From an uncultured Pelagibacteraceae bacterium (GTDB lineage Bacteria; Pseudomonadota; Alphaproteobacteria; Pelagibacterales; Pelagibacteraceae), in the NCBI GenBank assembly GCA_902636025.1, contig CACPQG010000001.1, positions 371,636-435,635 of the forward strand: DNA of 64,000 nucleotides, written 5' to 3'. Within the stretch, counting starts at the first letter, position 1; each line of letters opens with the position of its first letter. The notes beneath the pieces are model-generated. The model was not told the origin of the DNA and did not search any database. It saw only the letters and a list, made by a program, of their open reading frames with translations. Shown here piece after piece: positions 51,536-54,396 of this stretch. The position numbers were made by a program, and so were the translations under genes.

Positions 51536-52669
51536 ATGAAAAAAATCGCAATAATAGGTGCAGGCATTTCGGGTTTGTTTTTTGCAAACCTAATAGAAAA
51601 AAATAAATCTTATTCATATAAAATATTTGAACGAAAAAATTCAATTGATCTAAATGATGGATATGGAATACAATTATCTGTTAATAGTATTAAATTGCTT
51701 AATAATATTGGTTTTAAAAAACTTAACAATAATGAACTTTACTTTCCAAAAAAAGTCAATTTTCTAAATGCAAAAGACTCAAAAAAAATATGCGACATTG
51801 ACCTATCAAAGTTCAATAATGAAAATAATCATTATACTACGTTGAAAAGATCGAATTTAATTGAATTTCTACTAAATGGAATTCCAAAAGATAATTTGAT
51901 TTTAAATTATGAGCTTGATGATATTAAGCAAGGATATCAATCATCACTATTATCTTCAAATAATAGAACTGATGAATTTGATTATTTGGTGGCAGCTGAT
52001 GGTGTTTATTCAAAAACAAAACGAATATTATTTAAAAAAGAAGGTTTGCCCAAATACTTTAATAGTATTGCTTTAAGAGGGAACATTAAAGATTTTAATA
52101 ACTTTGATATTTCTTTATACCTTGGGCCAAACTTTCATTTTGTGATATACCCCATTAATCAAAAAAAAGAATTTAATTTTATAGCAATAATTAGAAAAGA
52201 ATTAATTCAAAAGAAAATAATCAACAAAGATTTATTGAATGATAATACTTTTAAGAAAAATTTATTAAACGAAATTTCCTCTAAATCAAATCTAAATCTA
52301 GTTGAAAAGGTCGAAGAGACTAAATGCTTTCCAATTTTTGTTAGCAAAAAATTTCTAATACCTAAATCAAATAATATTTTTTTAACTGGGGACGCATTTT
52401 ATGCATTTCCTCCTTCATTCGCACAGGGTGCATCACAATCAATAGAATCTGCAAACGAGCTTTTTTCGGATTTAAAGAACAATACCTCAAATTATTATAA
52501 AAATAGAGTTTTCAGAACTAAACAAATAATTTCAAGATCTAATCTTAATCATTTTGCATTTCATTTATCAAACCCTTTAAATATTTTTTTTAGAAACATT
52601 TGTTTGAAATATCTCTCGAAAAATGACAAATTTTTAGAAAATTATTTAGGAAAAGTTTATAACAACTAA
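51536..52669 (+). CDS. FAD-dependent aromatic-ring monooxygenase-like protein
   Basis: 377 residues of the PHBH/UbiH flavoprotein fold. FAD motif IAIIGAGISGLFFANLIE (about 4-21), the central DG motif YLVAADGVYSKTKR (about 153) and the C-terminal GDAFYAFPPSFAQGASQSIESA (GD...P, about 285-306, quoted in part). The substrate is unknown. Ubiquinone hydroxylation (UbiH/UbiF type) or catabolism of an aromatic compound are both possible. It follows mutY by 1 bp and overlaps the ccrM stop by 4 bp. Confidence 0.82.
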   Translation: MKKIAIIGAGISGLFFANLIEKNKSYSYKIFERKNSIDLNDGYGIQLSVNSIKLLNNIGFKKLNNNELYFPKKVNFLNAKDSKKICDIDLSKFNNENNHYTTLKRSNLIEFLLNGIPKDNLILNYELDDIKQGYQSSLLSSNNRTDEFDYLVAADGVYSKTKRILFKKEGLPKYFNSIALRGNIKDFNNFDISLYLGPNFHFVIYPINQKKEFNFIAIIRKELIQKKIINKDLLNDNTFKKNLLNEISSKSNLNLVEKVEETKCFPIFVSKKFLIPKSNNIFLTGDAFYAFPPSFAQGASQSIESANELFSDLKNNTSNYYKNRVFRTKQIISRSNLNHFAFHLSNPLNIFFRNICLKYLSKNDKFLENYLGKVYNN

Positions 52670-53739
52670 CTTCTTGGCCTTAATCGTTGCCTAAGATCAT
52701 CTATTGGTTTTAAGATTTTTCCTGACTGATAATGCCAATAGGTCCAACCATTGCAACTTTCAGAACCTAATATTTTAGCAGCCACCTTGTGAATTGATCC
52801 CTCATTTTTTTTATATCTTATACTCCCATCAACCATAACTTTTGCATAAATCTCCTTTTTTTTATCATAAATTTCTACTCCAGGTTTTATTACACCTAAT
52901 TCAATTAAAGATCCGAAAGGAATTCTCGGTTTTGATTTATTATTTTGAATTACATCTAAATATTCATCTTTAATCTCTTTTGTACTTTGTAATCTCTTAC
53001 TTGCAGCTTCATAATAAATTTTTTCTTTCTCAATTCCAAAGTATGATCTGCCTAGTTTTTTTGAAACTACTGCCGTTGTTCCCGATCCTAAAAAAGGATC
53101 GAATATAAAATCATTTTTATTTGAAGAGGCTAATATAATTCGATGAAGCAAGGCCTCTGGTTTTTGAGTAGAATGAACTTTCACTCCATTATTTTTCAAT
53201 CTTTCTTTACCATTACAAATAGGTAAATTCCATGTCGATCTCATCTGCAGGTCATCATTAAAAGATTTCATTGATTGATAATTGAATGTATATTTTGATT
53301 TTTTGCTTTTAGAGGCCCATATCAAAGTTTCATGTGCATTTGTAAATCTTGTACCCCTAAAATTTGGCATTGGATTATTTTTATTCCAGATTACGTCATT
53401 CAATATCCAAAAACCTAAATCCTGAACTATTTTTCCTACTCTAAATATATTATGATAACTTCCAATTACCCAAATAGATCCATTTTTCTTTAATATTCTT
53501 TTACATTCGCTTAACCAATCTGATGTGAATTTATCATATGTTTTAAAACTCTTAAACTGATCCCATTTGTCATTTACAGCATTTACTTTTGATCTGTCAG
53601 GTCTAACTAAACTATTTTGTAATTGTAAATTATATGGAGGATCTGCAAAAATTAAATCAAATGTCTCATCAGGAATTTTTTTTAGCTCTTTTAGACTATC
53701 TGCATTTAAAATTTTATTATGTAAATTTTTCAACATCAT
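52666..53739 (-). CDS. ccrM: CcrM-type adenine-N6 DNA methyltransferase (GANTC)
   Basis: Beta-class N6-adenine methyltransferase. 357 residues. Catalytic DPPY in LIFADPPYNLQL (about 29-40), the SAM motif in FDPFLGSGTTAVVSKKLG (about 217-234) and a C-terminal RAMA domain (about 270-350) ending GWTYWHYQSGKILKPIDDLRQ, the arrangement seen in Caulobacter CcrM and HinfI-like enzymes. Recognition of GANTC is inferred from the family and from GANTC sites in its own promoter. Starts at 53739 or at the next codon, 53736. Confidence 0.95.
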   Translation of the reverse strand: MMLKNLHNKILNADSLKELKKIPDETFDLIFADPPYNLQLQNSLVRPDRSKVNAVNDKWDQFKSFKTYDKFTSDWLSECKRILKKNGSIWVIGSYHNIFRVGKIVQDLGFWILNDVIWNKNNPMPNFRGTRFTNAHETLIWASKSKKSKYTFNYQSMKSFNDDLQMRSTWNLPICNGKERLKNNGVKVHSTQKPEALLHRIILASSNKNDFIFDPFLGSGTTAVVSKKLGRSYFGIEKEKIYYEAASKRLQSTKEIKDEYLDVIQNNKSKPRIPFGSLIELGVIKPGVEIYDKKKEIYAKVMVDGSIRYKKNEGSIHKVAAKILGSESCNGWTYWHYQSGKILKPIDDLRQRLRPRS

Positions 53740-53752
53740 TTTTTAAAATTTA

Positions 53753-53805
53753 ATTAGACTCCAGACCAGAATCTTCGTCAACCAGTGATTGAAAAAAAAG
53801 GACTC
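53753..53805 (-). promoter_or_regulatory. ccrM promoter with three GANTC sites
   Basis: On the minus strand TTGACG (53781-53776), a 17-base spacer and TCTAAT (53758-53753) form a good sigma-70-type promoter. Three GANTC sites lie here: 53757-53761 (overlapping the -10), 53769-53773 (in the spacer) and 53801-53805 (20 bp upstream of the -35). Transcription would start near 53746, so the leader is only about seven to ten bases. Confidence 0.65.
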
Positions 53806-53811
53806 TTCTTG

Positions 53812-54396
53812 TTACGAAATTTTTTTGAGACTCAATATATTGTGTATTGGCACGAACGTTTTTCTGTGATGCTTTGTTACACCAAATTTTTTAATCGCTT
53901 CTAAATGCTGTTTTGTGCCGTAGCCTGAATTTTTATTCCAGCCATATTTAACGAACTTTTTTGACATTTTTGAAATAAGTCTATCTCTAGAAACTTTAGC
54001 AATAATAGATGCTGCTGAAATTTCAGCTACTTTTTGGTCACCCTTAATTATAGACTTTAATTTATAACCATTCATTATTGGAGACTTATTACCATCAATC
54101 ATGATTAAAGATGGTTTAGATTTTAGTTTTTTTATAGACCGTTTCATTGCTAGCAGACTTGCTTTTAATATATTTAATTTCTCAATTTCTCTTAACGAAG
54201 CAGAGCCAATCGTCCAAATACTATTTTTTTTAATATATTTTTCTAATAAGTTTCTCTGATTTTTTGAGAGTTTTTTTGAGTCCTTAATTCTTTTTTTATC
54301 CACATGTTTTTTAAATATTACTGTGGCTGCAAAAACTGGTCCTACCAAACTTCCTCTACCAACTTCGTCGACACCAGCAATTACTTTTTTCATCAA
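53812..54396 (-). CDS. rnhB: Ribonuclease HII
   Basis: Removes ribonucleotides embedded in DNA. 194 residues. Catalytic acids in AGVDEVGRGSLVGPVFAA (DE near 6-7), LIMIDGNKSP (Asp near 100) and AEISAASIIAKVSRD (Asp near 133). It overlaps the upstream uracil-DNA glycosylase gene by 4 bp and sits 72 bp before ccrM, the neighbour order common in alphaproteobacteria. Confidence 0.95.
   Translation of the reverse strand: MMKKVIAGVDEVGRGSLVGPVFAATVIFKKHVDKKRIKDSKKLSKNQRNLLEKYIKKNSIWTIGSASLREIEKLNILKASLLAMKRSIKKLKSKPSLIMIDGNKSPIMNGYKLKSIIKGDQKVAEISAASIIAKVSRDRLISKMSKKFVKYGWNKNSGYGTKQHLEAIKKFGVTKHHRKTFVPIHNILSLKKIS

Follow-up and report, generated by a model that had tools for sequence, protein, structure and literature searches.

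In Caulobacter, ccrM is driven by the regulator CtrA. SAR11 bacteria, which rank with the most numerous cells of the ocean, do without it; what, then, controls the synthesis of their GANTC methyltransferase? We approached this question at the ccrM locus of an uncultured Pelagibacteraceae bacterium, contained in a window of 64,000 nucleotides (the whole stretch of DNA that was analysed). The ccrM product matches the Caulobacter CcrM structure 6pbd over residues 9-354 (E 1.4e-135), and this full-length match is combined with an N6_N4_Mtase catalytic domain and a RAMA-type C-terminal region, the features that mark the orphan CcrM methyltransferases. On these grounds the window gene is a true CcrM, and its enzyme is predicted to methylate GANTC. 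The first-pass annotation had read TTGACG-N17-TCTAAT on the minus strand before ccrM, together with GANTC at three places: overlapping the -10, within the spacer and about 20 bp upstream. All of these elements are present, the upstream site lying 19 bp from the -35, and a fourth GANTC follows inside rnhB. The features, all on the minus strand, are as follows.

52666..53739, minus strand: ccrM, GANTC adenine methyltransferase, 357 aa, with Pfam PF01555 (N6_N4_Mtase) and PF18755 (RAMA)
53745..53747, minus strand: predicted transcript start, placed from the -10 and implying a leader of about 5-8 nt
53753..53758, minus strand: -10 element TCTAAT, following TTGACG after a 17-bp spacer, with GAGTCTAAT nearly invariant across 108 Pelagibacter promoters
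53757..53761, minus strand: GANTC at the -10 (GAGTC), its overlap being the TC that starts the -10
53769..53773, minus strand: spacer GANTC (GATTC)
53776..53781, minus strand: -35 element TTGACG, whose TTGAC is the alignment anchor
53777..53793, minus strand: TTCAATC-N3-R-GTTGAC, a dyad (TCAAYC-N3-GRTTGA) overlapping the -35, possible operator
53801..53805, minus strand: upstream GANTC, 19 bp upstream of the -35, at offset -24 from TTGAC
53812..54396, minus strand: rnhB, ribonuclease HII (Pfam PF01351), upstream of ccrM and in the same direction
53829..53833, minus strand: fourth GANTC, offset -52, inside the rnhB 3' end; present at -52/-51 in 66 of the 108 promoters

We asked how unusual such a group of sites is. 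GANTC occurs 82 times in the 64 kb, or once per 780 bp, where shuffles expect 168, an under-representation of about twofold across positions 1-64000. The ccrM coding sequence in the window has no GANTC at all. The rarity of the motif claimed by the first-pass annotation thus stands, whereas the cluster that it called striking is only modest at the scale of the window. When 82 sites are placed randomly in the window, any three fall within 49 bp with P = 0.11 and any four within 77 bp with P = 0.009; shuffling the 72-bp rnhB-ccrM gap gives three or more GANTC with P = 0.003. The value of 0.11 is what speaks for the alternative that an ordinary promoter sequence happens to contain GANTC by chance, and it led us to reject clustering within the window as proof. 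Clustering by itself is weak evidence, and the argument must therefore rest on conservation, which is decisive.

To measure conservation we assembled 108 distinct promoters from the ccrM upstream regions of relatives and 80 named Pelagibacteraceae contigs, anchored them on GTTGAC and counted offsets from the first T of TTGAC. The -10 site, GAGTC at +20, is kept in 106 of the 108. A spacer GANTC is found in 98, at +8 in 67 and at +9 in 31, with the distance between -35 and -10 constant throughout, and at +8 any of the four bases occurs as its N. Sixty-six promoters have the upstream site, at -24, again with all four bases at N. Both core sites (spacer and -10) are present in 96 promoters, and not one of the 108 lacks both. 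The positions relative to the -35 and -10, on whose conservation the first-pass annotation had made its proposal depend, are accordingly held in place. One of the sequences with a Pelagibacter-type ccrM and promoter is NYYU01000038.1, titled Parcubacteria group bacterium, a contig that is probably mislabelled or contaminated.

Retention of this kind exceeds what common descent would leave. Fitch counts on the ccrM tree gave 0-2 changes per -10 GANTC position versus 15-30 in the free spacer columns. In neutral simulations on the same tree (2000 runs per rate), the spacer GANTC was retained in at most 39 of the 108 promoters at a rate calibrated from the free columns, and in at most 85 at a slower, conservative rate, compared with the 98 observed. 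In the ccrM coding sequences, GANTC falls in 23 alignment columns, all but one of them common to no more than five of the 108. Since N is free and the phase shifts by 1 bp, it is GANTC itself that the spacer retains. At the -10, N never varies in the Pelagibacter GAGTC and the whole of GAGTCTAAT is frozen, so that selection for GANTC there is inseparable from selection for the -10. These comparisons demonstrate, at the level of sequence, that selection maintains the promoter with its GANTC sites in Pelagibacter, and that the spacer site is kept specifically as GANTC. For the site in the end of rnhB, coding constraint may contribute to its retention. Chance, already refuted by conservation with a free N and a phase shift and by the class-wide recurrence described below, retains practically no weight.

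The -10 assignment deserves comment. A simple consensus scan misses the ccrM promoter because TCTAAT has no A as its second base, where a good -10 has one. The distance from TCTAAT to the ATG is 12-13 nt in 106 of the 108 Pelagibacter promoters. Outside SAR11, in other families of the class, TTGAC-GANTC-GANTC precedes ccrM in 30 of 86 upstream regions (shuffle mean 0.01), and TTGAC with one GANTC in a further 27 (shuffle mean 1.5). Among these 30 class promoters the second GANTC sits at +19 in 28, the first floats between +8, +9 and +10, and with an A at +24 and a T at +28 the -10 reads CAnnnT, 17 bp from the -35. In the second SAR11 family the -35/GANTC/GANTC layout recurs as TTGACCTCGATTCTATTTTGAATCATATT. 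The ATG comes 6-9 nt after the hexamer in most genomes of that family, as it does in roughly one third of the 30; with a start codon as close as 6-7 nt to the hexamer, ccrM is probably transcribed without a leader there and in several other families. This short distance, with a probably leaderless mRNA, lends independent support to the -10 assignment. On the bottom strand, the m6A position coincides with the first base pair of the -10 in the window promoter and lies one pair upstream in the other families.

The layout is thus class-wide rather than peculiar to SAR11, which goes beyond the first-pass annotation, as do GcrA as the likely reader and a second invariant element overlapping the -35. 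A search for the two-site pattern across 192 whole genomes gave matches at ccrM for at least 43 of them. Inside SAR11 the layout is partly or wholly lost from genera g5-g7 and rearranged in g8 and g9; a g8 promoter carries GATTCAA-N7-TTGAATC, a palindromic GANTC pair at a different spacing. A single-contig genome of genus g7 has its ccrM matched as two overlapping pieces in different frames (G190:C1:621780-622828), which suggests a frameshift near the C-terminus. The genome searches also returned a second recurrent TTGAC-GANTC-GANTC promoter (TTGAC-N4/5-GAATC-N5-GTGATTC), at about one per genome and in many families. It precedes a short FtsB/DivIC-like septum gene, which adjoins pdhA in most of the cases examined, and may be another ancestral methylation-marked promoter.

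We then considered which regulators could act on such a promoter. The ctrA gene is reported absent from P. ubique (PMC2877005, PMC7987155), and the CtrA site TTAA-N7-TTAA occurs in 1 of the 108 Pelagibacter promoters, which are thus not of the CtrA-activated type. We therefore rejected CtrA control of SAR11 ccrM. GANTC is methylated in Pelagibacter, with 99.86% of sites fully methylated in strain NP1 (PMC9516812). GcrA is known to bind m6A-GANTC, to contact sigma2 and to speed open-complex formation at methylated promoters (PMC7403470, PMC3667746). The genome analysed here encodes its own GcrA (G000:C1:74455-74886; PF07750, 7e-38), which aligns with the DNA-binding and sigma-binding parts of the GcrA structures 7ye1, 5yiu and 5yix, and GcrA is found in 54 of 61 relatives. 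A GANTC between or overlapping the -35 and -10, the placement that characterizes GcrA-dependent sigma70 promoters, is present in the window and, at both sites, in 96 of 108 relatives. Compared with the extended Caulobacter motif YGAKTCK, the Pelagibacter -10 site is mostly GGAGTCT, with no Y; in Brevundimonas the extension is not needed (PMC7987155). The gcrA gene of the same genome has one GANTC only, far upstream, in the 300 bp before it, and a GANTC-rich gcrA promoter like that of Agrobacterium was rejected for this genome.

Together, these observations point to a CtrA-independent, methylation-sensitive sigma70 core promoter through which CcrM would control its own transcription, probably via GcrA-sigma70, a reading to which we assign a probability of roughly 0.65. 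We infer that the methylation state of the core GANTC sites would set the activity of the ccrM promoter, in line with the direct autoregulation that the first-pass annotation had proposed. CcrM would mark the DNA that polymerase touches in front of ccrM itself, at GANTC sites placed in the spacer and on the upstream border of a weak -10. GcrA, as the sigma70 partner, would read m6A-GANTC and help to open the weak -10 without CtrA.

A serious rival, which we nonetheless think unlikely, dispenses with GcrA: methylation would act directly on sigma70/RNA polymerase, full methylation weakening binding or melting and so repressing ccrM by simple negative feedback. It draws strength from the -10 site being the least mobile, at +19 in 28 of the 30 class promoters and at +20 in 106 of the 108 from Pelagibacter, and from the Agrobacterium gcrA promoter, which is lowered by methylation even in E. 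coli, a host with no GcrA (PMC11514494). Six genomes of six families also bear the layout while a search for GcrA detected none, and a search for its DNA-binding domain was negative as well, with two positive controls found. Direct sensing accounts less well for the spacer site, which lies away from the base pairs that sigma reads and is also selected as GANTC, and for the fact that almost every SAR11 genome has GcrA, whose reading of GANTC in spacers is established. The presence of GcrA is rejected as a predictor of the layout: it is present in 24 of 30 genomes with the layout versus 26 of 29 without any TTGAC-GANTC, which is no association and speaks against GcrA as the exclusive reader. Some SAR11 genera with GcrA (g5, g6 and g7) have lost parts of the layout.

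The sites might also leave promoter activity unaffected, setting instead the timing of re-methylation by CcrM, sequestering the locus or serving, for example, to mark strands for repair. GcrA-bound GANTC promoters do often show no change in transcription (PMC7987155), which is compatible with such roles, but the sites hold set positions relative to the -35 and -10, beyond simple proximity to the gene, and the strict motif is confined to ccrM. Exact matches to TTGAC-N15-GANTCTAAT were found in 28 of 61 relative genomes, one in each, and all 28 are upstream of ccrM. We regard a role without any effect on the promoter as highly improbable.

For the reading in which GcrA and sigma70 act on a methylated core promoter, the sign of the response also matters. 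In Caulobacter models ccrM is on when hemimethylated and full methylation turns it off (PMC10073500, PMC2217572), and ctrA P1 of Caulobacter fires when hemimethylated, with GcrA (PMC4287350). With less certainty, and leaning only a little to this side, we propose that the SAR11 promoter would be most active when hemimethylated, just after the fork passes ccrM, and that full re-methylation would shut it. Each replication round would then give one pulse of CcrM, closed by re-methylation, a version that we favour because of the behaviour of Caulobacter ccrM, ctrA P1 and Agrobacterium gcrA (PMC10073500, PMC2217572, PMC4287350, PMC11514494). The distance between ccrM and parB is 211-226 kb in six complete Pelagibacter genomes (1.2-1.5 Mb), and ccrM would replicate early, provided that parB marks the origin. 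No terminator-like site was found on the minus strand of the rnhB-ccrM gap, so a terminator separating the two genes was rejected, and since none is visible, read-through from rnhB may provide a basal supply of CcrM.

The Pelagibacter promoters contain one further element. The sequence TTCAATC-N3-R-GTTGAC shows no or very few changes across all 108; GTTGAC served as the alignment anchor, and the independent evidence is the TTCAATC half alone. The element has one exact match per genome, at ccrM only, and a search of the sister genera found it absent there, confining it to Pelagibacter. A wider regulon for TTCAATC-N3-RGTTGAC was rejected, as exact matches lie only at ccrM and matches with one mismatch were not clearly above a reversed-pattern control. 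The dyad over the -35 looks like a candidate single-target operator; we know of no factor that binds TCAAYC-N3-GRTTGA.

These features permit a broader and more tentative proposal, for which we would set the odds somewhat below even. Alphaproteobacteria may ancestrally have controlled ccrM without CtrA, by a promoter that reads itself through two GANTC sites held in fixed places within the -35/-10 region; the replication-driven methylation state of the DNA contacted by polymerase would have timed CcrM synthesis. SAR11 would have kept this promoter at the centre of a cell cycle without CtrA, and a single-target operator over the -35 would be an addition made in Pelagibacter. A methylation-sensitive core promoter would itself explain how so streamlined a cell times DNA methylation by CcrM, GcrA and sigma70 alone. 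The ccrM promoter also offers a compact substrate for asking whether GcrA, sigma70 or both read the m6A at the -10.

Comparison with known systems places the SAR11 promoter among relatives that differ from it in instructive ways. The Caulobacter crescentus ccrM promoter serves the orthologous gene, and the methylation state of GANTC near it affects ccrM there; it is CtrA-activated, in contrast to SAR11, where the sites are inside the spacer and the -10 and there is no CtrA site and no CtrA. The Caulobacter GANTC sites were reportedly placed 3' of the promoter by Stephens in 1995. The parallel drawn in the first-pass annotation survives as methylation-dependent ccrM expression in general, with two GANTC sites in the Caulobacter promoter according to reviews (PMC10073500, PMC2217572), and breaks down in that the promoter there is CtrA-driven. 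GcrA control of ccrM has apparently been lost in the Caulobacterales (PMC7987155).

The GcrA/sigma70 promoters of Caulobacter (ctrA P1, mipZ and podJ P2) resemble the SAR11 promoter in being of sigma70 type with a GANTC between or near the -35 and -10, at -29 in ctrA P1 and -24 in podJ P2 (PMC4287350), and GcrA is present here too. Their targets, however, are other cell-cycle genes, whereas SAR11 ccrM has a pair of core sites in a fixed arrangement instead of a single site, and its link to GcrA is predicted. The Agrobacterium gcrA promoter (PMC11514494) likewise serves a gene of the CcrM/GcrA module, has several upstream GANTC sites and is repressed by methylation, but the gene is a different one, with six sites spread over 250 bp and the promoter unmapped there.

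Closest to our results is the study of Adhikari 2021 (PMC7987155), in which ccrM was predicted as a core GcrA target in 13 orders from extended GANTC motifs. That work used the presence of motifs irrespective of promoter position, and high scores were few among P. ubique genes; the text consulted is silent on a fixed TTGAC/GANTC/GANTC geometry, on the overlap with the -10 and on conservation in SAR11. Already known, then, are ccrM as a predicted core GcrA target (PMC7987155) and, from older work in Caulobacter, the sensitivity of ccrM to methylation. New, within the literature searched, are the fixed geometry with GANTC at the -10, the selection on the spacer GANTC, the recurrence of the layout across the class and its CtrA-free version in SAR11. 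Where there had been a general prediction, that GcrA targets ccrM, the class-wide geometry now specifies a design: selection holds a spacer GANTC that tolerates any N, and a second GANTC is fixed at the -10.
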